From positions 1 to 45,787 of the forward strand of contig LBPR01000007.1 of the NCBI GenBank assembly GCA_000990305.1: a stretch of 45,787 nucleotides of DNA. The letters run 5' to 3'. The notes under the pieces are model-generated. The model was not told the DNA's origin and ran no database searches. It saw nothing but the letters and a program-made list of their open reading frames with translations. Position numbers and translations under genes: made by a program. How positions within the stretch are numbered: position 1 is the stretch's first letter; every line of letters begins with the position of its first letter. This document shows, one piece after another, positions 3,943 through 38,680 of this stretch. Source of the stretch: Candidatus Roizmanbacteria bacterium GW2011_GWC2_34_23 (GTDB taxonomy: Bacteria > Patescibacteriota > Microgenomatia > UBA1406 > GWC2-37-13).

Positions 3943-5142
3943 ATGATCAACAAAATATTATTTTTTTTATTTCTTTTACTTCTTCCGTCCCAACTAGGTA
4001 AACACTTTTTTCTTGACTTTTCTTATCTTTCCGGAGTTCGGGTAGATTATCTTGCCCCAACAGTTTATCTAACTGACATAATTGTTTTTTTATTAACAGT
4101 TGTTAATCTAAAAATTATCCTCAAATTTTTTAAAAATAAAAAAGTTCTTTTGAGTTTACTTCTTTTAGTAATTAATATTTGGCTTTCACGTCTTCCAGTG
4201 ATTTCTTTTTATTGGTTTATAAAAATTATTGAGTTTTTGATAATTTTTTCCTTGGCTAAAAAAATATTAGTAACGTTGAAAGAAAAATATATTTTAGTTG
4301 CCTTACTTATATCAGGTTCATTTGAACTATTTTTATCTCTAATTCAATTAATTAATAAACATTCAGTTCAAGGAGTTTTTTATTATTTTGGTGAAAGGTT
4401 ACTTTCTCTTTCGACACCAGGAGTAGCCAAAGCCACAATCCAAGGAGTTGAGTTTTTACGACCTTATGGAACATTCTCTCACCCAAATTCCTTAGCAGGT
4501 TTTTTCCTGCTTTTATATTTTTTAGTTTTAACTTATAAAAAATTTAACCGTTATCTAGCTCTCAAATATTTGTTTTTATTCATCTCTAGTATTTTGGTTT
4601 TTATCTCTTTTTCCAAAGTTGCCATTGTGAGTTTTTTAATACTTACTACTTGCTACTTAATACTTAATACTAAACTCAGTTGCCGGCTATGTAAAATAGC
4701 CCGCGTACTTGTTTTATTCATTGTCTCATTAATCTTCCTGTCTGCGGCGACGGACCCTTTAACAGTTAACAAAAGAATCGAACTGATGAAAAATTCAGTA
4801 ACTATTATTCTTCGGTATCCGGTTCAAGGAGTCGGCTTAGGTAGTTATTTGATTGAACAGGCAAAATTTTCATCAAGATTCTATTTATTTTTTAACCAGC
4901 CGGTTCATAATATTTTTCTTCTTTTTATAAGTGAGATGGGTTTGATAATTGGAGGATTTTTGTTGTATCGATTAATCGATCAATTAATACAACGACGATT
5001 AACAAAAGGTCAATGGCTATTAATTTTTGTAATAATCTTTACAGGTTTCTTTGATCACTATTGGTTAACTTTACAGCAGAATTTCTTACTGATGGGATTG
5101 GTTATGGGAGTGATTCTATCTCGGACTTTACCTGTTGATTAA
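3943..5142 (+). CDS. O-antigen ligase/polymerase family membrane protein
   Basis: Multi-TM with RPYGTFSHPNSLAGFF and a C-terminal PVHNIFLLFISEMG motif. Confidence 0.75.
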   Translation: MINKILFFLFLLLLPSQLGKHFFLDFSYLSGVRVDYLAPTVYLTDIIVFLLTVVNLKIILKFFKNKKVLLSLLLLVINIWLSRLPVISFYWFIKIIEFLIIFSLAKKILVTLKEKYILVALLISGSFELFLSLIQLINKHSVQGVFYYFGERLLSLSTPGVAKATIQGVEFLRPYGTFSHPNSLAGFFLLLYFLVLTYKKFNRYLALKYLFLFISSILVFISFSKVAIVSFLILTTCYLILNTKLSCRLCKIARVLVLFIVSLIFLSAATDPLTVNKRIELMKNSVTIILRYPVQGVGLGSYLIEQAKFSSRFYLFFNQPVHNIFLLFISEMGLIIGGFLLYRLIDQLIQRRLTKGQWLLIFVIIFTGFFDHYWLTLQQNFLLMGLVMGVILSRTLPVD

Positions 5143-5695
5143 GATCAGATAACTGTGTCAAGGACTGATTTAATCCCTGCGGAAGGATTTTTATTAATTC
5201 TTCGATTAATTCCTTGTGTTTAGCATTGCTTAATTTTAAAGTTTCAACAAAACTGGAAGGAGCTTGAGCCCCTTGTTTTTTTGCAGATCTTAATAGCTCT
5301 GGTATCTTGAGAAAATATTTTTCTCCTTTAACAAAAGTATCGATTGCCAATTGGCTTTTTCCCTTTGAGGCAAGAACCAAAGACATAGACGTTCTTTTAT
5401 CAGAATATAGAAGATAAAGTTCAGCCTTTTTTAAATTATCTCGAGTCAAAAAGTCAGTAATTTTATCTCTCATAATTTTAGTTATATAAAGTGGGCTGTC
5501 CGGAAGAAGACCTGGATATGGCAAATTGTAAATAACTTTTTCTTGAGGAGTTTTTACTAATGTATCTGAAGCCCCTAAGACAAAGTATGTAACAAAGGGA
5601 ACAAGGACGACGAAAGAAATTAGCAAGATATAACGCCCAAAATTCTTCATAAGCATGTAACTATTATACAACAAATCCCTCACCATTAGTACCAT
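5102..5695 (-). CDS. DUF5667-like membrane-anchored protein
   Basis: N-terminal TM then LPYPGLLPDSPLYITKIMRDKITDFLTRDNLKKAELYLLYSDKR. Confidence 0.6.
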   Translation of the reverse strand: MVLMVRDLLYNSYMLMKNFGRYILLISFVVLVPFVTYFVLGASDTLVKTPQEKVIYNLPYPGLLPDSPLYITKIMRDKITDFLTRDNLKKAELYLLYSDKRTSMSLVLASKGKSQLAIDTFVKGEKYFLKIPELLRSAKKQGAQAPSSFVETLKLSNAKHKELIEELIKILPQGLNQSLTQLSDLNQQVKSEIESLP

Positions 5696-5718
5696 AAATA
5701 GTGAGGGATTATCCTAAA

Positions 5719-5991
5719 TCACTTAACCATTCTTTTCAAACTTTTTCCAGCGGTAAAACCAGGGGTTTTTGTGGCTGGGATTTGAATTTCAGCACCAGTT
5801 TGAGGATTTCTTCCTTTTCTGGCGGCCCGACGTCTGACCATAAAAGTACCAAATCCTGTCACAACTATTTTTTCACCTCTTTTCATTGCATCAGACATGG
5901 TGGAAAATACTGTGTTGACGGATTCTTTGGCGGCCTTAGCGGTTAGACCAGCTTTCTTAGCTACTTGGGCGATTAAATCTGCTTTTGTCAT
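5719..5991 (-). CDS. hup: HU-family DNA-binding protein
   Basis: MTKADLIAQVAKKAGLTAKAAKESVNTVFSTM...GFGTFMVRRRAARKGRNPQTG. Confidence 0.93.
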   Translation of the reverse strand: MTKADLIAQVAKKAGLTAKAAKESVNTVFSTMSDAMKRGEKIVVTGFGTFMVRRRAARKGRNPQTGAEIQIPATKTPGFTAGKSLKRMVK

Positions 5992-6167
5992 TTGATATCA
6001 CCTCCTTTCATTAGAATTTGTTTACGAATGTAATGAGTAACTGCAATTTTTTTTAACTATTATTATCAGTAATAGATTAGTGGTTTTTTGGCGTCCTGTC
6101 AATCTATATTTAAGATATCTTATTGTAACAATCTATATCAAATGTAGGGCGGTGGGACGAGGTAAAA

Positions 6168-6200
6168 TAGGGTCAGACCCTGTGTTAGGGTCTGACCCTA
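6168..6200. terminator. Perfect 14-bp inverted repeat (TAGGGTCAGACCCT-GTGTT-AGGGTCTGACCCTA) downstream of rny; terminator or REP-like hairpin
   Basis: Direct reading; each arm is itself a near palindrome. Confidence 0.6.
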
Positions 6201-6207
6201 GATAAAG

Positions 6208-7632
6208 TTAAATTTTAGTCGTAGCCTCAGCTCTAGTTTCCCGAATAACCGTGACTTTAATTTGACCCGGGAAAACTTCAAATTTTTGCTCCAATTCTTC
6301 TTTAATTTTTTCGGCAGTAATTAAAGCCTCATCATCAGTTATTTCATCAGGCCGGACAATTACTCTTAATTCTCGACCGGCCTGCAAAGCATAAGCTTCT
6401 TTGACGCCCTTTTTAGTTTTGGCAATATCTTCAATAGTTTTAATTCTTTTTAGATATTCACCAAAATCTTCGTGTCGAGCACCCGGTCGACCACCGGAAA
6501 CTGCATCGGCAATATAGACAACAACTGCTTCAAGACTGGTAAAAGGCACATCTTCATGGTGACTGGCGACGCAGTCAATCACTTTTTGAGGAAAGCGATT
6601 TTTTTTCAAAACTTCAACTCCGAGGTCAATATGGGATCCTTCCTTATCAGTAATGACTTTACCAATATCATGAAAAAGACAACCAAGTTTAACTAAGTTG
6701 ACATCAAGTTTTAATTCATGAGCTAAAGCAACTCCAATTCTAGTTTCCTCTAAGGTATGAGCAATCATGTTTTGTCCGTAAGAGAAACGGTATTTAAACT
6801 TACCTAAAAGTTGAATTAATTCAGTCGGTAAATTAAAAACACTAACACTGTGAGCTAATTCCTCACCGGCTTTGAAAATAATTTTGTCTACTTCCTCTCG
6901 GGTTTTTTTAACAATTTCTTCAATTCTTTCCGGCTGAATCCGACCATCTTTAATTAGTCGCTCAAGTGACATTCGGGCCACTTCACGACGGATGGCATCA
7001 AAAGAAGATAGTTTAATAACTTTTTCTTCTTCAAGATCAACATCAACTCCGGTGGCAATTTCAAAGGCTCTAATGTTGCGGCCTTCTTTACCAATAATTC
7101 TTCCCTTATAATCCTCACTTGGAAGGTTGATGACGGACAAAGTATATTCAGAAACATAGTCAATGGCGCCGTATCTAATTGCGTCAACTAATATTTGTTT
7201 GGCTTTATCATCGGCGGTAAGCTTAACTTCTTCTTCAGCCGATTTGATTTTTTTGGCTACTTCACCTTTTAATTTATCTTCCCAACCGGCAAGTAATAAA
7301 TCTCTAGCCTGATCTTTGGTTAATCCAGCTATTTTTTCCAACTTTTGTAATAACTGATCCTTTTTCTGTTCCAGTTCTTTTTTAATCGCTTCAACATTAT
7401 TTTTGACATCTTGGACGGACAGTCTTTCCCGATTAATAGCATTATCTTTTTCCTCAATCTGCTCTTCGCGATGGGCCAATCTCTTTTCTACTTCAATGGC
7501 ATCAGTAGCAACTTTTCTTACCTCTTCCTGGGCTTTGTAGGTAATAGTTTGTGCCTCTATTCGGGCTTTGGCTAATAGCTCGTCTCTTTCTTTCTTTAAC
7601 GAGGTAAACTTCTTAAAAAATTTCATTAACAT
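6208..7632 (-). CDS. rny: Ribonuclease Y (KH + HD domains), without N-terminal transmembrane helix
   Basis: Coiled coil, GRIIGKEGRNIRAFEIATGVDVDLEE (KH), HDIGKVITDKEGSHIDLG (HD), C-terminal FPGQIKVTVIRETRA. Confidence 0.93.
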   Translation of the reverse strand: MLMKFFKKFTSLKKERDELLAKARIEAQTITYKAQEEVRKVATDAIEVEKRLAHREEQIEEKDNAINRERLSVQDVKNNVEAIKKELEQKKDQLLQKLEKIAGLTKDQARDLLLAGWEDKLKGEVAKKIKSAEEEVKLTADDKAKQILVDAIRYGAIDYVSEYTLSVINLPSEDYKGRIIGKEGRNIRAFEIATGVDVDLEEEKVIKLSSFDAIRREVARMSLERLIKDGRIQPERIEEIVKKTREEVDKIIFKAGEELAHSVSVFNLPTELIQLLGKFKYRFSYGQNMIAHTLEETRIGVALAHELKLDVNLVKLGCLFHDIGKVITDKEGSHIDLGVEVLKKNRFPQKVIDCVASHHEDVPFTSLEAVVVYIADAVSGGRPGARHEDFGEYLKRIKTIEDIAKTKKGVKEAYALQAGRELRVIVRPDEITDDEALITAEKIKEELEQKFEVFPGQIKVTVIRETRAEATTKI

Positions 7633-7845
7633 AGGAATTTAAATGAAGCTTGGAGGCAAGAAAAATATCAAAGATTAAATCCGCCAACTAGCGGACAAAA
7701 ATCAGACCAACAAACTAATTCCTAAAAATTTAAGGAAAGAATTTGTGTTTTGGTCTGCCATTTTGAAAATTAATAATTAATATTTAACTTTTATAACTCC
7801 AGGCAATTTCTAATATATATATTTTACTCTTTATTTATTAAATCT

Positions 7846-9042
7846 TCAATTGTTTTTATTAAAAGAATAACTTTGCTTCATTTTTATAGCTAAATATATA
7901 ATTAGAGGTAGAGGCAATATTCCAGTAAAAAAATAAATCCACCTTGGGCTTGTTAATTCTACCAAAGGCCCTGACACTGCTACAATTATTGAGTAAATAA
8001 TACCCATTAATAAATTTAGAGCTGATAACGATGTAGCTCGATGTCTTGAATCAAAGACTTCATTAGTTAGTTTATTTAATAAGTTGAACCGTAAGGTTGA
8101 AGCAAACATTAAAGGTATTATGGCAATAACATTTAAAACGGGATTTGGGATAAGAGCAAATAAGCTTCCTACCCCCATTATGATTGGATGAATCCAAGCT
8201 CCATAAGCTCTGGTAAATTTAAGAATTTTTATAGCAATAAAACCAATTATCACTGCATTGACTATTCTGGCTGATGATAAAATAATTCCTTGGGTACTTT
8301 CCGCAAAACCAAGACTATTGATAAAAACCAAATTTATATAAGTCATCCATGACCAGGTAATTCCCGCAATTAACATAAAATAAATAGAAAGATATCTAGT
8401 ATAGGTATTTTTAAATAATTCTTTTACACCATTTTTTGTGTTATTAATGTAATCAGACCAAGAATACTTGGTACTGTCGAGACGAGGTTCTTTCATATTT
8501 AAATATAGAAAAACGGAAACAAAAATACTTATCCCTGAAAAAAGAAATGGTAACGTTGGAGATATTACATATAAAAAACCACCTACTAAAGTTGCAAATA
8601 TTAAAGCAATTTGAGTAAAAATCCCTTCTCTCGTTGCGATCGTAGTATATTCTTCTTCACGATTATTTTCTTTTAAAGTATCGTAAATTAGAGCTGTATT
8701 TGCTCCAGACATAGCACTTTCGCCAACAGCCCTGATTAGAGTTCCAACCACTATCCATAGACTACTTGGCATTAATACGATTAAAAATAATCCTAAAGCA
8801 TCAAATATTGCTCCAATCGCGCAGCTTATTCGTCTACCCCAAAGATCAGCAAAAACTCCAGTTGGTAATTCCATCAAAAACATCAAAATATAACGAACAC
8901 TCGCTAACAAACCCATTTGAGTCAATGTTAGATAATGATTTTGAAAAGCTACATAAATTGGAATAAAAAATAAAAGATTATTCAAAAATTCAGTCAGATA
9001 ATAAAAAAGGATATTTCTATCGACATAATTTTTTAATTTCAT
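7846..9042 (-). CDS. MFS transporter
   Basis: About 12 TM helices; LPTGVFADLWGRRISCAIG motif. Confidence 0.8.
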   Translation of the reverse strand: MKLKNYVDRNILFYYLTEFLNNLLFFIPIYVAFQNHYLTLTQMGLLASVRYILMFLMELPTGVFADLWGRRISCAIGAIFDALGLFLIVLMPSSLWIVVGTLIRAVGESAMSGANTALIYDTLKENNREEEYTTIATREGIFTQIALIFATLVGGFLYVISPTLPFLFSGISIFVSVFLYLNMKEPRLDSTKYSWSDYINNTKNGVKELFKNTYTRYLSIYFMLIAGITWSWMTYINLVFINSLGFAESTQGIILSSARIVNAVIIGFIAIKILKFTRAYGAWIHPIIMGVGSLFALIPNPVLNVIAIIPLMFASTLRFNLLNKLTNEVFDSRHRATSLSALNLLMGIIYSIIVAVSGPLVELTSPRWIYFFTGILPLPLIIYLAIKMKQSYSFNKNN

Positions 9043-9055
9043 AAAAATAAGAAAA

Positions 9056-9277
9056 TTATTTTTTCAAGAATATATTTTCGTTCAATCCAGTTTGTTTGAT
9101 AATACTTCGGAGTGTCCCCTGAGGGATATCTTTTGAATGAAAGGGAACAACGGTCGTTTTCTCACTTTTGAAATTATGATAAACCCGATGACTTCCAGTC
9201 TGTCTTTTAATCATAAAACCATTTTTGAGAAGAATCTTTTCCAAATCGCGAGGCTTAAATGATGGTAGTTTAACCAT
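9056..9277 (-). CDS. hicA: HicA-type mRNA interferase toxin
   Basis: LPSFKPRDLEKILLKNGFMIKRQTGSHRVYHN...VVPFHSKDIPQGTLRSIIKQTGL. Confidence 0.9.
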   Translation of the reverse strand: MVKLPSFKPRDLEKILLKNGFMIKRQTGSHRVYHNFKSEKTTVVPFHSKDIPQGTLRSIIKQTGLNENIFLKK

Positions 9278-9282
9278 ATTCT

Positions 9283-9555
9283 TTAATAAGCGAAACTGCC
9301 TGAAGGAAGATTGACTTCAATTTTTTTTGACGTGACGAAATAGTCATCACTATCTGGAGCAGGAATTGATTTTTTAAGTTCAATCGAGGTTTCAATATAA
9401 AGTTGCATCGCCTTTTTAACATTAGAAGTGGCTTCATCAACGGTTTTTCCAAAATCAGATATACCTAAAGAAGGAGCATATGCCACACAAAGAAAGCCTT
9501 TATTTTGTTTCTCTTTTTCAACAATGATTCGATAATTTAGAATAGTTGTTTTCAT
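9283..9555 (-). CDS. hicB: HicB-type antitoxin
   Basis: YRIIVEKEKQNKGFLCVAYAPSLGISDFGKTVDEATSNVKKAMQLYIE; immediately upstream of hicA. Confidence 0.85.
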   Translation of the reverse strand: MKTTILNYRIIVEKEKQNKGFLCVAYAPSLGISDFGKTVDEATSNVKKAMQLYIETSIELKKSIPAPDSDDYFVTSKKIEVNLPSGSFAY

Positions 9556-9559
9556 ATAT

Positions 9560-10045
9560 TTATATTATATCATTTTTCTCCTCAAATTTTTTAATGGTTT
9601 TCCGACTGATTTCAAAATTAAATCCTCTTCTTTGAAGTAATGACAGGGCTTTTTCAAAGCGTTTTTGTTTAGGCAGGGTCTTTATTATTTCCCAACGGCG
9701 AGTAAGGGCTTTCTTAGCTAATTTTTCTTCATTGATCTCTGTATTTGCAAAATATTTGTCAACTAGTTCTTTATCAATTCCAAATCTATTTAACTCTTGC
9801 TTAATGGCAAAGACTCCTTTAACCTTAGTCGCTGTCCTTGACCTGACTAGAAAATCTATAAATACTTTATCGTCTAAAAATTTTAGCTCTATTAAATGGT
9901 CAATTATCTTATCAACCGCCTCGTGAGACCAGTGGGTAGTCTTTACTTTTTTATAAAGATGTTCGCGGGTTTCCTTTATTGTTCGCGGACGGAATTTGAG
10001 ATAAAAGAAAGCAATGTTGAGAAGAGGTATTAAATCATTTTCCAT
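9560..10045 (-). CDS. recX: Regulatory protein RecX (ATG at 10045 preferred over the listed 10096)
   Basis: AFFYLKFRPRTIKETREHLYKK...DKVFIDFLVRSRTATKVKGVFAIKQELNRFGI; downstream of recA; the 51 nt before 10045 are repeat array. Confidence 0.8.
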   Translation of the reverse strand: MENDLIPLLNIAFFYLKFRPRTIKETREHLYKKVKTTHWSHEAVDKIIDHLIELKFLDDKVFIDFLVRSRTATKVKGVFAIKQELNRFGIDKELVDKYFANTEINEEKLAKKALTRRWEIIKTLPKQKRFEKALSLLQRRGFNFEISRKTIKKFEEKNDII

Positions 10046-10166
10046 AAATCTCAATAACCAATATGTCAAGTATTCCAAACAATAACCAATTACCAATAAT
10101 CAACATTCAAACCGTTTGATTAATTGAATATCGAAATTTGTTTGTTTCTTGGAATTTGGTTATTGG

Positions 10167-11150
10167 TTATTTCTTAATTAATTGTTTAAGTATTTGTTCC
10201 CGTACTTTCGCGTCTTTCATCAAAATTTCTTTTACTTCTTCTTTTCCATGCCCTAAAACTTTGTCATTGTATTTAATAAACGAACCGCTTTTAACTAAAA
10301 GCCCAGCGGCAATTGCGGCATCAATTATCCCCTCTTCTTTATCTATTCCTGTCGCGACGATAACAACCTCAGCTTCTTTAAAAGGCGGAGCTACTTTATT
10401 TTTAATTACCTTAACTCTGATTCTAGCTCCATAAACCATATTGTTCTTTTTTAATGTTTCAATTTTTCTGACGTCCATTCGAACACTGGAATAAAATTTA
10501 AGAGCCAGTCCGCCTGGCGTGGTTTCAGGATTACCAAAGAAAACCCCAATTTTTTGTCGAAGCTGGTTGGTAAAGACGATTGTTGTCTTTGATTTAGAGA
10601 CGATTCCGGTTAATTTTCTTAAAGCCTGGGACATTAAGCGAGCTTGAAGGCCCATCTGAGCATCTCCCATTTCGCCTTCAATCTCGGCTCTGGGAACCAA
10701 GGCGGCAACTGAATCAACTACAACCAGATCAATTCCTCCAGATCTGATTAAGGTTTCGGCAATTTCTAAAGCCTGTTCTCCAGTATCGGGTTGAGAGACT
10801 AAAAGATCTTCCAATTTGACCCCCAAAATCTTAGCCCAAGCCGGATCAAGTGCGTGCTCGGCATCAATAAAAGCAGCTGTTCCCCCGGCCTTTTGGGCTT
10901 CAGCAATTAAAGAAAGACAAACAGTAGTTTTTCCAGCTGCTTCCGGTCCAAAAATTTCAATAATTCTTCCTCTAGGAATGCCACCAACTCCAAGAGCCGT
11001 ATCGAGAGTTGGAATTCCGGTTGAGATAACATCAACTGGAACAACTGTAGATTGTCCTAATCTCATAATACTTCCACGTCCAAACTGTTTTTGAATCGCA
11101 TCAATCGCCGTTGTCACTGCCTGTCTTTTTTCTGAATCATTATTCTTCAT
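10167..11150 (-). CDS. recA: Recombinase RecA
   Basis: [59 protein letters not shown]. Confidence 0.98.
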
Positions 11151-11164: not shown

Positions 11165-11280
11165 TAATTATTAACGAGTTTAGCGAGTTTAACGAGTTTT
11201 TAACTCGCTAAATAAATAACTCGTTAAACAGATTAATAATAAATAATTCAAATTAATTGTCAACCGCTTATAACCTACAA
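11165..11280 (-). promoter_or_regulatory. recA leader: element TTGTAGGTTATAAGCGGTTGAC plus iterated TTWRCGAGTT palindromes
   Basis: Direct reading; same architecture upstream of comM (23752-23846). Confidence 0.6.
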
Positions 11281-13362: not shown

Positions 13363-14679
13363 TTAGATAAATTCAGATACCTGTTTGCCTAATTTGACAG
13401 CATAATTGGTTCCCCTGTCATAAGGATAGGTCATATCAAGATTGGCGATGAAAAAGTTTTTATCTGGTGTTTTAAACGTCGGCATATTTTTTTCAAAGTC
13501 CTGATCAAAAATAGGTTGTGCAAATGGCGCTTTAAACATATAAGAATTGAACAATGAAACAATGGAACAATTTGGATTAATTTTTTTTAAATGAGGAAAA
13601 ACCAACTTAACTAATTCATCCTTGTCCATTTTTAGCAATTTACTATCTCCATCAACATACCATCCAATATATGCTAAGTGATTGTTATTATAATTTTTTT
13701 TGTTAGCGAAATTTGTATGCTGGGCAAGAATCATAAAAGGAATTTTTTCAGTGCAGATATTAAGCCAATAAGTTTTATCAAGGATGGGTTTGTCTGTTTC
13801 TAATATTAAAGTAATCGCATGTAAATATTTTAGTTTATTAAAGTGGGATAAATATTTGGGAGAAAAAATATTTGTTGTTAATTTTGTCATGACAGGAGTT
13901 GGTAAAGTCGAGATTATTTTGTCATATGTCTGACCATCAATAATAAACTTCTCTCCCCGCTTTTCAATATTTTTAACCTCGTAGCCTTTTAATGTTTTAA
14001 CGTTTAAACGTTTTAACGTTGTTTCTAAATAGCTAATAAATATTTGAAACCCTCCTTCGACATAACCCAGGCCTTTAGTTCTCTTTTTGATTCTGGCCCA
14101 GATAAAAGAACTTGAAATAATTCCCGCATATTTGCCGAACTTTCCCCGAAAGAGCTGTTGCCATAGTGTATTCCAAACTTTAATTCCCATGTTTTTTTTT
14201 AAAAATTCTTCAGATGTCATCTTTTTATACATTGATAAAAAAGGAGATAGTTTGAGAAAAAGAATAACAAGACCAGCTCTAAGTTTATCAATAAATCCTA
14301 AAAGAGGAAATTTTAAGAGATCAAGAGGAGTGTCTAGGGGATAAACAGAAAAATTGTTCGATTGTTTCATTGCTTGCCCGTCGAAGCTCGAAGAGCGAAG
14401 TCGGATTTCATTGCCAAATAATGAAGATGTTTCTGGGGAACGGAAATAAATTTTATCAAAATCAATTTCTTTGGCGAAGTTCAAAATATCGTAGTCATTA
14501 GCAAAAAGATGATGATAGGCCCGCTCCAAATACCAATTCCAATTTTTGGATTTAAATCCAGACGCCAATCCACCTAAAACTTTTTCTTTTTCCAGAATAG
14601 TTACCTGATGACCGTCTTTAGCTAGATAATAGGCAGAGGTTAACCCGGTAATTCCTCCCCCCAAAATCGCTATTTTCAT
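13363..14679 (-). CDS. NAD(P)/FAD-dependent oxidoreductase (amine oxidase / protoporphyrinogen oxidase-like)
   Basis: MKIAILGGGITGLTSAYYLAKDGHQVTILEKEKVLGG; C-terminal DMTYPYDRGTNYAVKLG. Confidence 0.85.
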   Translation of the reverse strand: MKIAILGGGITGLTSAYYLAKDGHQVTILEKEKVLGGLASGFKSKNWNWYLERAYHHLFANDYDILNFAKEIDFDKIYFRSPETSSLFGNEIRLRSSSFDGQAMKQSNNFSVYPLDTPLDLLKFPLLGFIDKLRAGLVILFLKLSPFLSMYKKMTSEEFLKKNMGIKVWNTLWQQLFRGKFGKYAGIISSSFIWARIKKRTKGLGYVEGGFQIFISYLETTLKRLNVKTLKGYEVKNIEKRGEKFIIDGQTYDKIISTLPTPVMTKLTTNIFSPKYLSHFNKLKYLHAITLILETDKPILDKTYWLNICTEKIPFMILAQHTNFANKKNYNNNHLAYIGWYVDGDSKLLKMDKDELVKLVFPHLKKINPNCSIVSLFNSYMFKAPFAQPIFDQDFEKNMPTFKTPDKNFFIANLDMTYPYDRGTNYAVKLGKQVSEFI

Positions 14680-15785: not shown

Positions 15786-16487
15786 TTAACCTTTGGCTAA
15801 GGCTAAAACATAAACTTTTTTTACTCCGGCTTTTTTCAAAATTCTAGCCGCTTCTTTAACGGTTGATCCAGATGTGATCACATCATCAATTAATATTATG
15901 TTTTTGTTAGAGACGCAAAATTTTGCGTCTCTACATTTATTTTTGATGGCAAATACCCCTCTTGTATTAAAATACCTTGCCTTTTTGCTTTTTACTTGTG
16001 CCTGTGAAAGTATCTCCCTTTTTCGAACTAATAAATTAATAATAGGGAAATGAAGAAATTTTTGAAAAAATATACTAATGAGATTAGCCTGATTAAAGCC
16101 CCGCTCATTATATTTAATTTTTGATAGTGGAATTGGCTGCATAACGAAATCAGGAGAAAGCTTCTTATAGAAGCCTAACTTTTTAATTATTTGCGGTTCA
16201 ATGATCCTGTAAAATTCTTGCCAGACCTCGGTAGCCAATCGATATTTAATATTTTTAATAACTTTTTTTAATATTGGGTTGTAATAATAGATTGTGACCA
16301 ATCCATCAACGTATAATTTATTTATACAATTATGATGAGTTAGGCCGAAAAGAGAAGGCTTTTTACAATAAAGGCAGATATCTGATTCGATTGGTTTTAA
16401 TTTATTTTGACAAGATCGACAAAGATAGACCCCAATGTATCCACAACCAAGACAAAATTTTGGGAAAAGGAGATCGATGAGAAACAT
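15786..16487 (-). CDS. ComF-family phosphoribosyltransferase-like protein (start likely 16487, MFLIDLLFPKFCLGCG)
   Basis: N-terminal zinc-ribbon cysteines (CLGCG..CRSCQ..CLYCKK), RGFNQA, IILIDDVITSGSTV PRTase motif. Confidence 0.85.
   Translation of the reverse strand: MFLIDLLFPKFCLGCGYIGVYLCRSCQNKLKPIESDICLYCKKPSLFGLTHHNCINKLYVDGLVTIYYYNPILKKVIKNIKYRLATEVWQEFYRIIEPQIIKKLGFYKKLSPDFVMQPIPLSKIKYNERGFNQANLISIFFQKFLHFPIINLLVRKREILSQAQVKSKKARYFNTRGVFAIKNKCRDAKFCVSNKNIILIDDVITSGSTVKEAARILKKAGVKKVYVLALAKG
15908..15933. repeat. Perfect 26-bp palindrome TAGAGACGCAAAATTTTGCGTCTCTA inside the comF-like CDS (REP-like)
   Basis: Direct reading. Confidence 0.85.
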
Positions 16488-16491
16488 AATG

Positions 16492-16536
16492 ATTATAATC
16501 ATTATAATTGTTATAACGCTTATAAACATTATAAAT
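16492..16536. repeat. TTATAANNN tandem array, 9-nt period, 5 copies, upstream of comF-like gene
   Basis: TTATAA at 16493, 16502, 16511, 16520, 16529. Confidence 0.8.
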
Positions 16537-20566: not shown

Positions 20567-21088
20567 ATGTCTATCTATACCCGCACTGGCGACTTTGGAA
20601 CAACCGGTCTTTTTGGTGGGAAAAGAATTTCAAAAGCCGACTGTCAGATTGAGACCTATGGATCAATTGATGAGTTAACCTCCTACATCGGTTTAGTCGT
20701 AGTTAAATTAAAAGATAAGAAAGATGCCGATTCTCTTGTCAAAATTCAAAAAGACCTTTATCAGATAATGGGATTTTTGTCCGGAGCAAAAACCGACTTA
20801 TTATTTTTAGAAGACAGAGTTTTAACTTTTGAAAAAAATATTGATCTGATAGAAAAAAAACTACCAAAATTGACTAAGTTTATTATCCCAGGTGGTAATG
20901 AAGTCTCCGCATTATTCCATATTCTAAGAGTAAGCTGTCGTCGTGCTGAAAGAATTTTTGTTGAATATTTTAATAACAATCGAACAATGAAACAATCAAA
21001 CAATATACTAATGTATTTAAATCGTTTATCTGACCTTTTTTTTACCTTGGCACGAAAGTATGGAAAAGATAATGAAGTTGTTTTATAA
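20567..21088 (+). CDS. Cob(I)alamin adenosyltransferase, PduO type
   Basis: MSIYTRTGDFGTTGLFGGKRISKADCQIETYGSIDELTSYIG...FIIPGG...RVSCRRAER. Confidence 0.9.
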   Translation: MSIYTRTGDFGTTGLFGGKRISKADCQIETYGSIDELTSYIGLVVVKLKDKKDADSLVKIQKDLYQIMGFLSGAKTDLLFLEDRVLTFEKNIDLIEKKLPKLTKFIIPGGNEVSALFHILRVSCRRAERIFVEYFNNNRTMKQSNNILMYLNRLSDLFFTLARKYGKDNEVVL

Positions 21089-21637: not shown

Positions 21638-21685
21638 TGTCATAATAATCTAAAAGTATACTTTTGTAGGTTATAAGCGGTTGAC
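21638..21685 (+). repeat. Dispersed element copy: AATAATCTAAAAGTATACTTTTGTAGGTTATAAGCGGTTGAC
   Basis: Matches 23727-23768, minus strand 11259-11280, and the window end 45742-45787. Confidence 0.8.
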
Positions 21686-21716
21686 ATATAAATATATTTC
21701 AAATACACATTTTATA

Positions 21717-21750
21717 TGTAGGGAACAAATATTTTTGTTCCCTACAAAAA
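21717..21750. repeat. REP-like hairpin TGTAGGGAACAAATATTTTTGTTCCCTACA
   Basis: 12-bp inverted repeat just upstream of the REP-associated transposase ATG. Confidence 0.85.
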
Positions 21751-21752
21751 TC

Positions 21753-22316
21753 ATGAACGTTATAAAACATCGAAAACAAAATCGTTTAAACGGATTCAAT
21801 TATTCATCAAACGGATATTATTTTGTAACAATCTGTACAAAAGATCGAGAAAAATATTTTGGAAATATTATTGATAATAAAATGGTCTTAAATAATATTG
21901 GTGAAATTGTAAATACATGTTGGTTGGAAATACCAAATCATTTTCCCAATGTTGAATTAGACGAATTTCAAATAATGCCAAATCACGTACATATGATAAT
22001 TATCATCAATAATAAATCAAATACCAAAAACAAATCACCTGTAGGGAACAAATATTTTTGTTCCCTACAAAATATCAATATATCCTGGCAAACAAAATTA
22101 TCAGGATCATTATCATCTGTAATACGTGGTTTCAAAATCGGCGTAACCAAAAAATGCAGAACAAACAATAATAAAATTATTATTTGGCAAAAATCATTTT
22201 ATGACCAAATCATCCGAACAGAATATTCTTTATATTTTATCCGCCAATATATTCATGACAATCCATTAAATTGGGAGTCGGATAGAAATAATTTTAATAA
22301 TAAAAATAAGGTATAG
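21753..22316 (+). CDS. REP-associated tyrosine transposase (Y1_Tnp / IS200-like HUH)
   Basis: NGYYFVTICTKDREKYFG, FQIMPNHVHMIIII (HUH), SLSSVIRGFKIGVTK, WQKSFYDQIIRTEYSLYFIRQYIHDNPLNW. Confidence 0.9.
   Translation: MNVIKHRKQNRLNGFNYSSNGYYFVTICTKDREKYFGNIIDNKMVLNNIGEIVNTCWLEIPNHFPNVELDEFQIMPNHVHMIIIINNKSNTKNKSPVGNKYFCSLQNINISWQTKLSGSLSSVIRGFKIGVTKKCRTNNNKIIIWQKSFYDQIIRTEYSLYFIRQYIHDNPLNWESDRNNFNNKNKV
22040..22072. repeat. Second copy of the REP-like hairpin, inside the transposase ORF
   Basis: 33 nt identical to 21717-21749. Confidence 0.9.
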
Positions 22317-23229: not shown

Positions 23230-23326
23230 GATAGAATCGGATGAAATCAGACGAAGTCAGATAAAATCAGTAAAAGCAAAACTGATTATATCCGATTAAA
23301 TCCGATTTGATCTGATTACATCCAAT
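23230..23326. repeat. GATNNNATC phased array A, 10-nt period, hairpin, between convergent stop codons
   Basis: 4 left-arm and 4 right-arm 10-mers. Confidence 0.85.
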
Positions 23327-23726: not shown

Positions 23727-23846
23727 TAATAATCCAACTGCTCACTTTTGTAGGTTATAAGCGATTGACTAAAATAACACATTATTTATTATTTTATTTA
23801 GCGAGCTATTTATTTAGCGAGTTTTAAACTCGTTAAGCTCGCTAAT
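23727..23846 (+). promoter_or_regulatory. comM leader: dispersed element (TTTTGTAGGTTATAAGCGATTGAC) plus TTAGCGAG nested hairpin
   Basis: Same architecture as recA leader. Confidence 0.6.
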
Positions 23847-23849
23847 ATT

Positions 23850-25370: not shown

Positions 25371-25454
25371 GATGAAATCAGATAGAATCAGACGGAGTTA
25401 GATAAAATCAGTAAAAAAACAAACCGATTACATCTGATTATATCCAATTAAATC
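25371..25454. repeat. GATNNNATC phased array B (hairpin)
   Basis: 10-nt period, homologous to array A including the loop. Confidence 0.85.
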
Positions 25455-25461
25455 TATTTTT

Positions 25462-25800
25462 ATGTTTGAGATAAAAGATTTGAGAATATATCAAAAAAGT
25501 TTGAGTTTAGTAAAAGAAGTTTATATTTTAATTAAAAATAATTATAAATTATCGAAAGATTATTCATTATGCGATCAGATAAAAAGAGCCTCAATTTCTG
25601 TTCCTGCAAATATATCAGAGGGTTTTTTTCGTTCGAAAAAATCTACCAAAAATTATCTTGAAATTTCTTCAGGTTCATCTAATGAAGTAGTAACTCATCT
25701 TAAGGTTATTTTTTTAGTTTACGAAATAAATACAGATAAATTACAGGAAGAATACATAATTCTAGGAAAACAAATTAATGCATTTTCCTCAAAATTTTAG
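25462..25800 (+). CDS. Four helix bundle protein (S23/23S rRNA-intervening-sequence protein family)
   Basis: FEIKDLRIYQKSLSLVKEVYILIKNN..LSKDYSLCDQIKRASISVPANISEGFFR. Confidence 0.88.
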   Translation: MFEIKDLRIYQKSLSLVKEVYILIKNNYKLSKDYSLCDQIKRASISVPANISEGFFRSKKSTKNYLEISSGSSNEVVTHLKVIFLVYEINTDKLQEEYIILGKQINAFSSKF

Positions 25801-25803
25801 ACT

Positions 25804-25848
25804 GATTATATCTGATTTTATCCGATTAAATCTGATTTCATCTAATCG
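25804..25848. repeat. GATNNNATC phased array C
   Basis: Four 10-mers GATTATATCT GATTTTATCC GATTAAATCT GATTTCATCT. Confidence 0.85.
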
Positions 25849-26262: not shown

Positions 26263-26640
26263 GTGTTTAATATATTTTTACCTCTTTTTACAGTTTCTGC
26301 TCAGATTCAGGATTGGGAAACAGGTCCATCGGGGAACTGTGTTGTTGATGGTGTCCCAACACTTAAATGCTTGGAGATAGTCTTTGGTAACATTCTTTTT
26401 ATGTCTTCTTTTTTTATAATTATTGTTTTATTTATTATGTTTGTCGTCGGCTCGTTTCGCTACCTGACTTCATTTGGTAATGCAGAGCGTATTAAAAAAG
26501 CCCAAGGAACTTTGAAGTATGCGCTGATAGGATTTATATTATTTGTCAGCGCATTTTTGATAATGACAATTATTCAAACATTATTTTTGGGAACGGGAAC
26601 AGACAAACCCAATTTGTTTGAATTTAAGTTGGGAGAATGA
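26263..26640 (+). CDS. Small two-TM protein, VirB2/TrbC pilin-like paralogue (GTG start)
   Basis: VVGSFRYLTSFGNAERIKKAQGTLKYALIGFILF parallels the preceding gene. Confidence 0.5.
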   Translation: MFNIFLPLFTVSAQIQDWETGPSGNCVVDGVPTLKCLEIVFGNILFMSSFFIIIVLFIMFVVGSFRYLTSFGNAERIKKAQGTLKYALIGFILFVSAFLIMTIIQTLFLGTGTDKPNLFEFKLGE

Positions 26641-26642
26641 CA

Positions 26643-26755
26643 GTAAATGTTAAATGTTAAAAAAATATTAAATAACAAAATATTAAACGTTTTTATGTTT
26701 AACAGTTTAAACTTTAATAGTTTATTTAACCTTTAATCTTTAAGATTTAATATTT
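26643..26755. repeat. Imperfect ~113-nt palindrome of TTTAA/TTAAA words, 7-8 nt spacing, between convergent genes
   Basis: GTAAATGTTAAATGTTAAA...TTTAATCTTTAAGATTTAATATTTAC. Confidence 0.75.
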
Positions 26756-26903
26756 ACTTTGAGGGTGTTACGAAGATTACCTTCACTCCTTTATCTTCCG
26801 GAATGGGCGAGGCCATTTTATTTTTTTCCTTAATAAAATTATAGGAGACAAATGCTAAGAGTGCGATTCCGATGGCGATTAAAACGATTCCTAATCCTTT
26901 CAT
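26754..26903 (-). CDS. 49-aa single-TM small protein MKGLGIVLIAIGIALLAFVSYNFIKEKNKMASPIPEDKGVKVIFVTPSK
   Basis: Below ORF-track cutoff; ATG overlaps the TGA of the upstream glycosyltransferase (ATGA). Confidence 0.6.
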   Translation of the reverse strand: MKGLGIVLIAIGIALLAFVSYNFIKEKNKMASPIPEDKGVKVIFVTPSK

Positions 26904-29793: not shown

Positions 29794-29799
29794 TAAAGT

Positions 29800-31902: not shown

Positions 31903-31951
31903 GCCTGTATACTAACAAACTTATAATTTATTTGCATTAAGACTGTTTATC

Positions 31952-32002
31952 ATCCCCGTGCTTTGCCAGCCGTAGTCTTGACAAAGGCTGGAAGACGGGG
32001 AT
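31952..32002. repeat. Compound hairpin ATCCCCGT..GCCAGCC..GGCTGG..ACGGGGAT
   Basis: Inverted repeats between two minus-strand genes. Confidence 0.7.
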
Positions 32003-32031
32003 CAAGATTAAATATACCTTTTTATTATATA

Positions 32032-32544: not shown

Positions 32545-32598
32545 ACGTAAATTATACTGAATTATTTTTCCCACCTCAAAATAAAAAGATTGATGCGC

Positions 32599-33750: not shown

Positions 33751-33771
33751 AAAATTTTATAACTATTAGAT

Positions 33772-33823
33772 GTTAGGATTGTACCATTAAAACCTAACAT
33801 ATGTCAAGTAGAAGTTAGGTTTT
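33772..33823 (-). promoter_or_regulatory. fic promoter with three GTTAGG/CCTAAC sites; TTGACA-N18-TACAAT
   Basis: -35 at 33807-33802, -10 at 33783-33778 (minus strand); AAAACCTAAC 33789-33798 vs GTTAGGTTTT 33814-33823. Confidence 0.7.
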
Positions 33824-33894
33824 AGAAATTATCTCATTTTTTCCACCTCGAAATAGAAAGATCAATGAGGTAGGGAACAATAGGTGCGTCGGGT

Positions 33895-35106
33895 TTATTT
33901 TTTAAGAAGAAAATATAAAAATTTATCTACTATATTTCTGATTGTAGCTACTCCTTTAACTTCAGGTGGAGGACCTGATGAAAAATTTTGTGGAGGAGGG
34001 CCTTGATTTTGTTCTGGCGGAGGACCCTGATTTGGGGGCGATTCCCGTCTTTTTTCCGATGGCTCCTGAAAATTTTCTGGAGGACGAAATTCTTCATCAG
34101 GCCGCTTAAATTCAGAGGAACCTTGTGGAGGACCTTGGCCCCGACATTTTTCTGGGTTCCCCTTGCAAAATTTTTCCATATCTTGCGGTTGTATATTTTC
34201 CGGTTTCATATTTTGGGGTTGTCCACCACCAAATTGTTCTTTACATTTCTCGGGATTTTCTTTACATAGTTTTTCCATTTCTTCCCGCTTCACTCCTTCC
34301 GGCGGTTTGTCTCGCTCTCCCTCTTTCCCTTCCGGGCCTGGTCCGAATTTTTGACATTCTGACGAATTTTTTTCACAGTATTCTCTACACGATGATTCGC
34401 TAGTACATCCACCTGGGCCTCGAAATCCTTCTTGCGACGGCCCATCACGGCGTTCCTGGCCTTCAGGCGGTTTAAATTTAGAACATTCATTAAAGTTATC
34501 AGGACTGGAACAAAATGTTTTGCAGGACTCTTCAGAATTACAACCACCTGGACCTCTTTTTTCCTCGCCCCCTTTTAATCCTGTTTGTTTGGCAAACTCC
34601 GAACATTTTTGTCGATTCCCCTCCTGCTCGCAGATTGATTTACAGGTTTGAGGTGAATCACACCCCAGAATTTCTTTTGCTTTCGTAAGAATCTCCTGAT
34701 TTTTTGGACTCAATATTTGCTCTTTCACCAACCCTGTTTTTTTGGCAAAGTTGGTACATTTCTCAAAATTTTCCTCTTTTTCGCATATATTTTTGCACTC
34801 AGTCTCTGAATTACAACCCAACTCTGTTTTTGCATGTATTAATATCTCATCGGTCTTTCGTTCCTCGTAAAATCCTTTTTGTTTAGCGTACTGAATGCAG
34901 GTGTCACGGTGAGTTTCGTCTTCGCAATAGTTGCGGCAGCTTGTGTAATCTGCGCAGTTCCCAAGACTTGCAATAGGATAGGTTACCCCGTATTTTTTAG
35001 CAGCCTCTTCATTTGTAGTCTGACCTTTTATTAAAGAAGGTGAATAGAAAAAGAAAACGGTAAATAATAAAAAAAGAAATAATTGACGGATTGATATGTG
35101 TTTCAT
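33895..35106 (-). CDS. Secreted Cys-rich repeat protein with Pro/Gly/Gln-rich C-terminal region
   Basis: Signal peptide; five modules like C-NSETE-C-KNI-C-EKEENFEK-C; shorter C-KENPEK-C motifs downstream. Confidence 0.8.
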   Translation of the reverse strand: MKHISIRQLFLFLLFTVFFFYSPSLIKGQTTNEEAAKKYGVTYPIASLGNCADYTSCRNYCEDETHRDTCIQYAKQKGFYEERKTDEILIHAKTELGCNSETECKNICEKEENFEKCTNFAKKTGLVKEQILSPKNQEILTKAKEILGCDSPQTCKSICEQEGNRQKCSEFAKQTGLKGGEEKRGPGGCNSEESCKTFCSSPDNFNECSKFKPPEGQERRDGPSQEGFRGPGGCTSESSCREYCEKNSSECQKFGPGPEGKEGERDKPPEGVKREEMEKLCKENPEKCKEQFGGGQPQNMKPENIQPQDMEKFCKGNPEKCRGQGPPQGSSEFKRPDEEFRPPENFQEPSEKRRESPPNQGPPPEQNQGPPPQNFSSGPPPEVKGVATIRNIVDKFLYFLLKK

Positions 35107-35399
35107 TTTAGATTGTCAAATGGATTGGTATTTTTGGAAAACGGGTTTTGATACTGGGTTTTATCGTTAAACGGATTTTCATATTTTGTCTCAATAGGAA
35201 CATTCATTTTGTTTTCAGCCTGAATGGTTGGTGTTGGAGAAAACGCACTGTTTTTCGTGGTCTGATTTTTTCTTATTATAAAAACAAGTAGACTAGTTAC
35301 TATAATAATAATAAAAATAAATGTCTCAATAAAAAGAATAAGTTTCAAACGACTGGGTTTTGTTGGCTGAGTAACTGGTTGAGTAACGTCATCCACCAT
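35103..35399 (-). CDS. Single-TM hypothetical protein with three NPF motifs
   Basis: Overlaps the next gene by 4 nt (ATGA); ENPFNDKTQYQNPFSKNTNPFDNLK tail. Confidence 0.6.
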   Translation of the reverse strand: MVDDVTQPVTQPTKPSRLKLILFIETFIFIIIIVTSLLVFIIRKNQTTKNSAFSPTPTIQAENKMNVPIETKYENPFNDKTQYQNPFSKNTNPFDNLK

Positions 35400-35483
35400 A
35401 GTATCACTATTACATAAGTAAACGGAGTTGTCAATTGGTCAAAAGTTGAAAACCAATGCCAAATCTGTTTTACTAAAATTAGA

Positions 35484-36119
35484 ATGAAAACAATCGTTTA
35501 TTATTCAGGGAAAATAGAAACAAAAGGCCGGGAGTGCTTCGTTGGGAATCAAAAAGTCGATTGTCCACAAACAGGTAAATCATTTACTATTGCGGGTGAT
35601 AAACTAAATCTTTTACCACAAATTCCTGTTTTAGAAAAACGCAGCGATCCGATTTTCTTCACAATTCTTCTGGTAATAATTATCTTCTTTTCCGTCTTAG
35701 TTGTATTTAAAATTAAAATTTTTGGCAAAACTTTAGAAGAATACATTAAGCCAATTTGGTATTTTATTCTTATTTCCATCGCGGCGGTCGCCTGGCAGTA
35801 TTTGTTTGGACTAAAGATTGATGATGGCTTAATGTCATTAAAGATTAGTCAGTTGGTTTGGGAAATTTGCATTGCCGCTTCAGCTTATAAATTAATCAAA
35901 ACAGCCAATTTCGGTTATGGCAACTTATTTTTCTTGGCAGTTTTGTATAGCCTAATTATTCATGGCCTAAAAGCAAGTGTCAGATATCTTTTTTACACCA
36001 AAACATTTTTATATTTGTTGGATCGGTTTTTATATGGCAGTCTTTTGGTGATGGTGATTGTTTTTATTGGAGGATCGATGTTTATTTTCTTCAGAAAAAA
36101 AGGGATTATTAAATTTTAA
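35484..36119 (+). CDS. Multi-TM hypothetical membrane protein
   Basis: About five hydrophobic segments. Confidence 0.6.
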   Translation: MKTIVYYSGKIETKGRECFVGNQKVDCPQTGKSFTIAGDKLNLLPQIPVLEKRSDPIFFTILLVIIIFFSVLVVFKIKIFGKTLEEYIKPIWYFILISIAAVAWQYLFGLKIDDGLMSLKISQLVWEICIAASAYKLIKTANFGYGNLFFLAVLYSLIIHGLKASVRYLFYTKTFLYLLDRFLYGSLLVMVIVFIGGSMFIFFRKKGIIKF

Positions 36120-36120
36120 A

Positions 36121-37959
36121 CTATTGAGCCGAACAGTCTTGAGGACAAGATTGTTTGCTTTCGTTTAAATTCGGTTCGCAAAAATCGTTACCACAAACAG
36201 CTTTGCCCGAGGGAGCGGTTTTTTCTAGCTTAAAAATATTCTTAATGAAATTTAAGATTATTTCCAGCAAACTCGGTTTCCGACCCCCCTGATCTACTAC
36301 TCCAAAATTGGCCATCAGTTGACTTTCCGGGGAAGGCTCAATGATGCTCGAGCAGTTAAAAGTTTTTCCTCGGTCTTGAGAAATATATGTTTCAAAAAAA
36401 TATACCGATCCGCCCGTACCGGCCGCAATATATTTTCCATTTGCCGAGATATCAATTTCTTCCAAGTATTCATTGAAAGGAACTTCAATGCCTGTTTTTT
36501 TGCCGCGGTCAAAAATATAAAGTTTGTTATCCGTTCCGCCTGCCGCAATAAAACTTCCGTCATCAGCAATATCTATTCCTCCCAGGGTAGTATTAACAGT
36601 CCAAGAAGTAATTGGCTGACTTGATTTGCTATCAAAAATATATGCCTGCCCGCCAAAAGTGGCCGCACCGATAAATTTTCCATCAGGTGTAAAATTTAAT
36701 GCTCTTACTGAACTGCCATTTTGCGTTGGGAATTTCCAAACAGGTTCTTTAGAATTTGCCTTAAAAAGAAAGACAGCTCCGGCATCAGATTCGCTGCCAA
36801 CGGCCATTAATGATCCATCAGCGGAATTTTTTGCTCTGTGTACCGGAGAATCACGGGTTAAAGGATCGCTTTTTATAAGTGGTTTATTCGAATCTTTTGA
36901 AAAAAGATAAAATCGCCTGTCCGGACAGCCCGTTGAACCGGTAATAAAACTTCCATCGCTGGAAAGCGAAACATCGTGAAAATTGCCGGATGAATGATAA
37001 CTCCACAAAGGCTTTTCGTTTTTATCGTTCCATAAAATTAAGAGGTTTGAATTTTTATCTGATTCTTCCCCGGCAGTTGCTGCTGCCATATATTTCCCAT
37101 CTTTAGAAATAGCAACGTTATAAGAAGAATTTTGAGCAGTATACATCCAAATGGGTTTTTTACTTGATTTATCAAATAGCGTAACTTTTTCTCCAAATGC
37201 GGCGATTATTTTAGAACCATCTCCTGAAATTGCGACTCCTCCTTTTACATCATCGCCAATTCTGCATTGCTCGCAAGCAAAAGACCAAAGAGGTTCTTTG
37301 GGTTTTTCGGTATCAAAAAGATAAACATGTTTTGAAGTTTTAGCAGCTAAATACTTTCCGTTGTCAGATAAAGAAATTCCTCCAACCCATTCTTTACCGG
37401 TTGAAAAGCTTAAGATTTTTTTACCAGATTGTTTACTGATTACAGCAATTTCATTTTTTTCAAATGCACTTTTGAAAAGAACGGGGCCATTGTCAGGCGA
37501 GTCGATAATTGCATCTCTTGTTTTTCCTAACCCGTTTGACGCTTCAAAATAATAGAAATTTGAGCCTAATTTATTTGGCACATATTTATAAAAGTATTTA
37601 ACGCCTTTTTTATAGTCATTATCTTTGGGATTTGCTTTTTGCATATTGATCATTTGACCGTTAAAATAAATCTTGACATACTCAGGCTTTCGTCCCTCTT
37701 TGTCAAAATAAATTACTGAATATGTGTATCGCTGGCAAACTGGTCCCCAACTTGGGTAAACATGTCCTTCGAGAAGCTGCGGATCATTTTGCGTTTTTGG
37801 AAGTTTTGGAATCATTCCGCTTGGAGTATTTTTATCCTCGGCAAAGATAGAATTGAAAGAAAATAAAGAAAAAATTATGATAAGACTAACAATGATAAAA
37901 TTTCTTACTTTCATAAAGAGCCTTAATTTAATTGAAGCAGAAAATGGTTTATAAAGCAA
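36121..37959 (-). CDS. Secreted beta-propeller (WD40/PQQ-like) protein with C-terminal Cys motif
   Basis: Signal peptide; repeated SxDGxYxAAGTxxxxxYxFD blades; C-terminal CGNDFCEPNLNESKQSCPQDC. Confidence 0.82.
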   Translation of the reverse strand: MLYKPFSASIKLRLFMKVRNFIIVSLIIIFSLFSFNSIFAEDKNTPSGMIPKLPKTQNDPQLLEGHVYPSWGPVCQRYTYSVIYFDKEGRKPEYVKIYFNGQMINMQKANPKDNDYKKGVKYFYKYVPNKLGSNFYYFEASNGLGKTRDAIIDSPDNGPVLFKSAFEKNEIAVISKQSGKKILSFSTGKEWVGGISLSDNGKYLAAKTSKHVYLFDTEKPKEPLWSFACEQCRIGDDVKGGVAISGDGSKIIAAFGEKVTLFDKSSKKPIWMYTAQNSSYNVAISKDGKYMAAATAGEESDKNSNLLILWNDKNEKPLWSYHSSGNFHDVSLSSDGSFITGSTGCPDRRFYLFSKDSNKPLIKSDPLTRDSPVHRAKNSADGSLMAVGSESDAGAVFLFKANSKEPVWKFPTQNGSSVRALNFTPDGKFIGAATFGGQAYIFDSKSSQPITSWTVNTTLGGIDIADDGSFIAAGGTDNKLYIFDRGKKTGIEVPFNEYLEEIDISANGKYIAAGTGGSVYFFETYISQDRGKTFNCSSIIEPSPESQLMANFGVVDQGGRKPSLLEIILNFIKNIFKLEKTAPSGKAVCGNDFCEPNLNESKQSCPQDCSAQ

Positions 37960-37968
37960 GAAGTGAAA

Positions 37969-38277
37969 TTATTTTATCCATTGGGAACGAGAAAGATCAA
38001 CCTTGTTATTTTTGAAAGATACTCCTTCATCAATTAACATTTTTTTCTTTTGAGCAATTCCACCAACTCCCGAATATCCTATTAGTTTTCCATCTGATGC
38101 AACGACCCGATGGCAGGGAACAATCGGAGCATCAGGATTGTTTTTCATGAAAACACCGACGGCTCTTGCAGCTTTTGATTTTCCAGCGAGTTTAGCCAGT
38201 TGTCCATAGGTGGCAACCTTGCCTTTGGGGATATAGCTACAAATTTTATAAACTTTGGTTTTAAAATTACTTTTCAT
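37969..38277 (-). CDS. MGMT/Ogt-like DNA-binding domain protein
   Basis: VYKICSYIPKGKVATYGQLAKLAG..VGVFMKNNPDAPIVPCHRVVASDGKLIGYSGVGG. Confidence 0.9.
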   Translation of the reverse strand: MKSNFKTKVYKICSYIPKGKVATYGQLAKLAGKSKAARAVGVFMKNNPDAPIVPCHRVVASDGKLIGYSGVGGIAQKKKMLIDEGVSFKNNKVDLSRSQWIK

Positions 38278-38300
38278 ATATAAAGGTAATTATAGTCTGG

Positions 38301-38320
38301 ATTCCCTCCTTCGAGGGAAT
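38301..38320. repeat. Hairpin ATTCCCTC-CTTC-GAGGGAAT
   Basis: 8-bp perfect inverted repeat in a GGATTCCC..GGGAATGAC context. Confidence 0.6.
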
Positions 38321-38429
38321 GACAAATGAATTAATTTTATACTAGGAAAACAGTAAATATTAGCTTTTATAGCTGAAAAAATCAGACTTTTTTGATAAAA
38401 TGTACTTGCTCCTTAAAATATTTGGTTTC

Positions 38430-38464
38430 ATTGAAAATTGTAAATTGATAATTGAAAATTAATT
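38430..38464 (+). repeat. 7-nt period array ATTGAAA ATTGTAA ATTGATA ATTGAAA ATTAATT abutting the tRNA
   Basis: Direct reading. Confidence 0.8.
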
Positions 38465-38540
38465 TCCCCTGTAGCTCAATCGGTAGAGCAGGATCCTGTT
38501 AAGATCAAGGTTAGAGGTTCGAGTCCTCTCGGGGGAGCCA
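38465..38540 (+). tRNA. tRNA-Asn (GTT), CCA encoded
   Basis: TCCCCTG TA GCTC..GAGC, anticodon loop CTGTTAA, AGAGGTTCGAGTCCTCT, CGGGGGA G CCA. Confidence 0.93.
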
Positions 38541-38637
38541 GCACTGTTCTTAATATAACCTTTCGTCTCACAGTATTGACAAATACGTCTCATTTTGAAC
38601 CGATTTTACTTCAAAAAGATACAATATATATCTTAAA

Positions 38638-38680
38638 TTGATAGTTGACAGTTGACAGTCAACTGTCAACCTGATATAAT
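38638..38680 (+). promoter_or_regulatory. Consensus promoter TTGACA-N17-TATAAT embedded in 27-bp palindrome GTTGACAGTTGACAGTCAACTGTCAAC
   Basis: -35 38652-38657, -10 38675-38680; palindrome 38644-38670. Confidence 0.8.

Follow-up and report, generated by a model that had tools for sequence, protein, structure and literature searches.

Short tandem-word arrays as probable ends of very small mobile elements encoding 23S rRNA intervening-sequence proteins

The window analysed here, a stretch of 45,787 nucleotides from Candidatus Roizmanbacteria bacterium GW2011_GWC2_34_23, contains arrays of short, degenerate words repeated at exact periods of 7 to 10 nt. We propose, with a probability of about 0.8, that a class of very small mobile elements accounts for these arrays, which would be the ends of the elements and their derivatives without a gene. 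The elements would encode the 23S rRNA intervening-sequence protein (IVP, or S23), a four-helix-bundle protein. An element of this kind would consist of an array of about four tandem words, an IVP gene and an inverted array, with each IVP lineage having its own word and its own spacing (7-10 nt).

Arrays were scored as ungapped self-matches (+1/-1.5). At periods 6-11 the window has 10 arrays that score 14 or more, compared with 0.33 in fourth-order Markov copies. The whole genome, 707,712 bases rebuilt from stretches, gave 40, 12, 12 and 7 spacer arrays of score 14 or more at periods 7, 8, 9 and 10 respectively. The Markov control predicts 0.1-0.2 for each of these periods, an excess of 50-200 fold for intergenic arrays genome-wide, and the neighbouring periods (4-6 and 11-13) are near-empty, with 0-2 spacer arrays at the same score. 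Coding sequence across the genome contains 61 arrays of period 7 against 4.4 after synonymous shuffling, a count in which some arrays may really be spacer because the open reading frame calls are crude. Chance or base composition as the source of the arrays is ruled out by the Markov, synonymous and codon-order controls.

A preliminary description of the window had named a Markov control as the check on its arrays, and they passed it both in the window and genome-wide. Most of the arrays that it listed lie where it placed them and have the periods it gave, whereas two or three are at chance level when taken individually: CGAAGNN x3 at 14382 (score 8, for which around 25 are expected per window), ATTGTT x3 at 14353 (score 7.5) and TTGGTTA at 10149 (score 9), not significant alone, opposite which CAATAAC forms an inverted array at 10080 (score 12). 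Its view that each locus has its own word did not hold, as loci throughout the genome have words in common, which form families and mostly occur in inverted pairs. These families are AAATNNN at period 7, ATTGTTNN/AACAATNN at period 8, TATAANNNT, AATTRRYCT and GAGTTTAAC at period 9, and AATCAGATNN at period 10.

The IVP gene of the window (25462..25800, + strand) encodes 112 amino acids. It belongs to PF05635, with an E value of 5.9e-23 and 81.6 bits against a cut-off of 33.8, and the protein matches PDB 2GSC (E 1.3e-6), the structure of XCC0516, which has five chains in the crystal. On its left lie period-10 arrays of AATCAGATNN followed by the inverted word (25371..25455, + strand), and on its right a period-10 array of the inverted word closes the element (25802..25846, - strand, score at least 14). 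The genome has six IVP loci, five of which score above the PF05635 cut-off, and read by eye all six are bracketed by, or contain, arrays of their own word. The words are GTTAACGG (period 8), AATCAGATNN (period 10), GTTATATG (period 8) and AAATAAC (period 7) at four loci, and the remaining two have arrays of period ~9 in or beside longer IVP-like genes, again by eye.

Orthologous sites in related genomes indicate how the window element came to lie where it does. At least nine relatives have the pilin promoter directly after the comM stop codon, with no element and without the left arrays (an empty allele), and the boundary between the right array and the pilin promoter matches these empty sites. 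The array-IVP-array unit is present between comM and pilin in our genome (G000) and in one relative (G002). From this comparison of orthologous sequences we show that the arrays and the IVP gene were inserted as one unit, with empty alleles. A single spot in the comM 5' UTR also varies in its content. In our genome it carries period-9 inverted words AGCGAGTTT (23796..23848, with a weak score of its own of 8), in G002 and G007 the period-9 word AAAGTCYAT, in G009 the period-7 word GTATAAC, in G004 and G008 other words, in G013 and G015 whole IVP genes, and in several other relatives no array. Within a coding sequence, the period-8 AACAATNR array of the cobalamin adenosyltransferase gene (20974..21005, + strand; score 14.5 for 20975-21005) is an in-frame insertion in a variable loop, which is missing from most orthologues and has other sequence in the few that possess it. 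The comparison of orthologous loci that the preliminary description had suggested thus identifies arrays as insertions in all three settings: different words in one 5' UTR, empty comM-pilin alleles and the in-frame adenosyltransferase array. No target-site duplication was recognised by eye at the comM-pilin sites or at dispersed copies, where the spacers have diverged.

Copies of the ends are also found without a gene. A period-10 inverted-array hairpin at 23235..23326 (array 23284-23317 strong) belongs to the word family of the window IVP element and is 78% identical over 96 bp to its left arrays, which have further solo relatives elsewhere in the genome at 71-78% identity. In the recA 5' UTR, the period-9 inverted arrays ACGAGTTTA (11171..11227; score 15 for 11171-11199) are 82% identical to the region C13:12341-12469. 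The recX-recA spacer contains the period-7 inverted arrays CAATAAC and TTGGTTA (10044..10171, scores 12 and 9), probably a gene-less element, and another gene-less element with period-7 AAATGTT and TTTAAAC arrays (26640..26756; 26725-26756 strong) lies 3' of the second pilin gene. The other arrays of the window lie within genes or close to them. At period 7 these are TACTTAA in the O-antigen ligase gene (4636..4675, + strand, score 19.5), ATTGNNA directly before tRNA-Asn (38430..38464; 38430-38460 strong) and TTGACAG with its inverted word (38638..38672; 38638-38670 strong) closely upstream of the gene at 38689. At period 8, TTTTAANG lies in an amine-oxidase-like gene (13987..14020, score 18.5), which has a second, weaker array of this period at 13550-13573, and at period 9, TTATAANNN extends across the start of a phosphoribosyltransferase-like gene (16486..16535, score 18.5).

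Comparison of the genome with itself revealed copies of 120-146 bp that lack the gene, are as much as 97% identical and lie scattered in unrelated flanks. At eleven other loci the two arms of the C4 IVP element are found together without the gene, at a distance of 4-54 nt from each other, which is the pattern of autonomous and non-autonomous elements. As with MITEs, there are dispersed near-identical copies, ends shared with a gene-bearing copy and an empty orthologous site. The gene-less copies could be old. A period-7 gene-less family in the same genome has an internal palindrome, CCTGCCTGCCGGCAGGCAGG, near one end (C6:20421-20566, C20:12392-12535 and C16:5028-5167).

Arrays are abundant only in genomes with IVP genes, among 13 genomes of one order (the present genome taken whole, twelve relatives sampled, N runs excluded). 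Array density is 8.8-32 per 100 kb in the seven genomes that have IVP genes and 0-1.9 in the six that lack them (Mann-Whitney p 0.0015; Spearman 0.85). The GC ranges of the two groups overlap, with the IVP-free genomes leaning higher.

The association extends well beyond the genome. Across the order, essentially every IVP gene is bracketed by inverted arrays with one period per locus (30 loci, comprising 28 from relatives and two of the present genome). Arrays also bracket ten cyanobacterial IVP loci, plasmid ones included, one Azospirillum 23S rRNA intervening sequence (IVS) and one Riemerella locus. A broad sample of 80 IVP loci from ~15 phyla, biased to one IVP subtype, gave 78 with both flanks available. 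At least one flank scored 13 or more at 63 of the 78 and both did so at 36, compared with 3.4% of 913 control windows. Period 7 predominates in this sample, with some loci of period 8 and 9, and at about one fifth of the loci no array is clear at this threshold, an outcome to which truncated contigs and the strict score contribute. Three of the cyanobacterial plasmid IVP genes (L080, L083 and L087) sit with their arrays inside CRISPR-Cas operons, in the cas10/cmr3 gap or the cas6/cas4 gap.

The similarity of array words tracks the identity of the IVP proteins (Mantel r 0.46, with a maximum of 0.21 in 500 permutations), and does so in cross-phylum pairs alone (r 0.49, null maximum 0.20). At the level of sequence, the array word goes with the IVP and not with the host. 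The period likewise follows the IVP tree, as judged from 13 period changes compared with at least 19 in 300 shuffles. Units have a fixed internal structure; the common heptamer conserves A, G and A at positions 1, 2 and 4 and leaves positions 3 and 6 almost free. The commonest arm has four units.

These properties bear on a different reading, in which the arrays are independent short tandem repeats that arise by slippage and serve IVP genes as safe or hairpin-like targets for insertion. Arrays do greatly outnumber IVP genes, and strains of Coxiella differ in the number of tandem heptamers (PMC4990558). Furthermore, the unit number of the arrays varies and very long perfect arrays occur in cyanobacteria, so slippage does act on them. 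However, slippage alone would leave a product whose decay spares no particular position of the unit, which the conservation of fixed positions argues against. It also sits poorly with a word that goes with the IVP protein across phyla, with IVP-free genomes that lack arrays and with gene-less copies that have both arms of an IVP element; we regard this origin as improbable. The preliminary description had set aside both simple slippage and CRISPR, an interpretation that our data support, and it had suggested that the arrays share a generating process or form a class of structured elements. That suggestion is borne out, although the partner shared by the arrays, the IVP, had been missed.

The conserved motif ACTTTTGTAGGTTATAAGCGGTTGAC, whose end is a -35-like TTGAC, has 31 sites genome-wide and three in the window (11259-11280, - strand; 21664-21685 and 23748-23769, + strand). 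It precedes recA, comM, a comEA-like gene (SLBB + HHH) and all six Y1 transposase genes, as well as four IVP, six TrpR-like and two Gp49-like genes and one PaaX/Cas2-like gene. This set is a candidate DNA-uptake or damage regulon joined by mobile elements. Between the motif and the start codon, the Y1 (RAYT-like) genes contain a perfect palindrome such as GGGTCGGACCCTCC..GGAGGGTCCGACCC (window 21686-21760; C8:9385-9445, C22:8758-8815 and C24:5998-6057), which resembles a REP unit in the gene's own leader.

The positions of the arrays raise the question of a host function, as terminators, RNase III stems or translational control elements, with the IVP as a host regulator using them. Many arrays begin within 10 nt of a stop codon, or are located between the shared promoter motif and a start codon, and the inverted arms are able to pair. 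The right arm of an element beats most arms of the same period in in-phase pairing with its left arm (median rank 6%), but is the single best partner in only 27 of 78 cases, and the in-phase fit thus mostly reflects shared words. Selection for an RNA stem, looked for as a sense-strand G.U bias, was not seen (114 sense vs 125 antisense). Given that one and the same 5' UTR differs between close relatives, with words unrelated to each other, an IVP gene or nothing in it, that copies also lie in frame within genes and that the IVP count ranges from 0 to 7 per genome, a regulatory origin appears distinctly improbable. Mobilisation by the resident Y1 (IS200-like, RAYT-like) transposases after the manner of REP/BIME, with the IVP as accessory or passenger, is highly improbable, for although Y1 genes share the promoter motif of several IVP genes and often have their own 5' UTR palindrome, these 5' UTRs hold no tandem words, and Y1 transposases are neither needed nor enough, as G001 and G004 have IVP loci with arrays and no Y1 match and G020, with four Y1 genes, is free of arrays over 82 kb.

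For mobile IVP elements, the preferred reading, a mechanism can be outlined. The IVP would bind the array of its own word, roughly one unit per subunit; such binding is suggested by the correlation of word and protein, the five-chain 2GSC relative and the published homology to Avd. The bound array may then single out the element, either as DNA or as a single strand in hairpin form, to be copied or inserted. The IVP element codes for no nuclease, recombinase or polymerase, and host replication or recombination enzymes would carry out these steps, while gene-less copies would probably be mobilised in trans by the IVP. Copying by a resident reverse transcriptase was considered and rejected, with no RVT_1 match in the 19 genomes of the genus searched. 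In transcripts the inverted arms could pair into a stem, by which the version in 23S rRNA would be tolerated and cut out by RNase III.

Several known systems share parts of this organisation. IVSs with an S23/IVP open reading frame are known in 23S rRNA and their origin has been called unclear; that of Coxiella burnetii has heptameric repeats, GACAGAT, beside the open reading frame and is cut out by RNase III (PMC4990558). Like the window element, they have a PF05635 open reading frame within inverted-repeat ends, and in Azospirillum heptamer arrays flank both sides as here. In contrast, the window IVP element lies between comM and a pilin gene, and no element of the window is in rRNA. The present elements occupy spacers, UTRs and in-frame positions within genes, at periods of 7-10, and have lineage-specific words and abundant gene-less copies.

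Heptamer arrays in Beggiatoaceae, cyanobacteria, Bacteroidetes and Xanthomonas have been described without a mobile partner (PMC4679880, PMC4692102), among them TAACTGA in Beggiatoaceae (PMC4679880) and GGGNATC in Xanthomonas and Nostoc (PMC4692102). A heptamer-built stem of unresolved origin is found in the Nostoc trnL intron (PMC4476775). These STRR arrays resemble ours in being degenerate, mostly heptameric, intergenic and sometimes inverted, and four units are commonest in Xanthomonas (PMC4692102) as they are here. They were described without a protein partner, whereas our work adds periods of 8, 9 and 10 nt and the link to IVP, which for STRR was tested in cyanobacteria and not in Beggiatoaceae or Xanthomonas. 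In the one Sphaerospermopsis genome examined, AGGAGTC, GGTAATT, CGTAATT and AATTGAC (either strand) rank among the commonest dispersed heptamers and also bracket its own IVP genes. No paper that connects IVP genes with heptamer arrays in general emerged from a search of open-access text.

Avd of the diversity-generating retroelements is a homologous four-helix-bundle protein (PMC10053308), and matches to the IVP-family HMM adjoin reverse transcriptase genes in two relatives (G022 and G024). The genus of the present genome differs in having no reverse transcriptase in the 19 genomes searched, and the two Avd genes of this type that were checked, in two relatives, have no flanking arrays. In the Avd-like genes L232 (G024) and L233 (G022), the open reading frame contains a (CA)n run close to its start, coding for alternating His and Thr. 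MITEs and REP/BIME are likewise small, gene-less and dispersed with inverted-repeat ends, and the dependence on a protein in trans would be shared. They differ in that the ends described here are tandem word arrays rather than simple terminal repeats, and the partner is the non-enzymatic-looking IVP rather than a DDE or Y1 transposase.

More broadly, we see an even chance that IVP elements form a transposable-element class of their own that spans phyla. On this reading an oligomeric four-helix-bundle protein, whose word and spacing differ by lineage, would read the tandem-array ends; the elements would move without a nuclease or polymerase of their own and would be the source of the bacterial heptameric repeats and of the 23S rRNA IVS. 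The link between IVP and arrays in many phyla may account for the seven-base repeats of cyanobacteria and other bacteria, which have long lacked an explanation. One answer may then cover three puzzles, namely these degenerate heptamers, the origin of the 23S rRNA IVS and the role of the very common 'four helix bundle protein'. The claim is directly testable because each IVP gene has a predicted word and spacing beside it. If true, it would mean that a natural code links a small protein family with short nucleic-acid words, and that elements of this kind spread without an obvious enzyme of their own.
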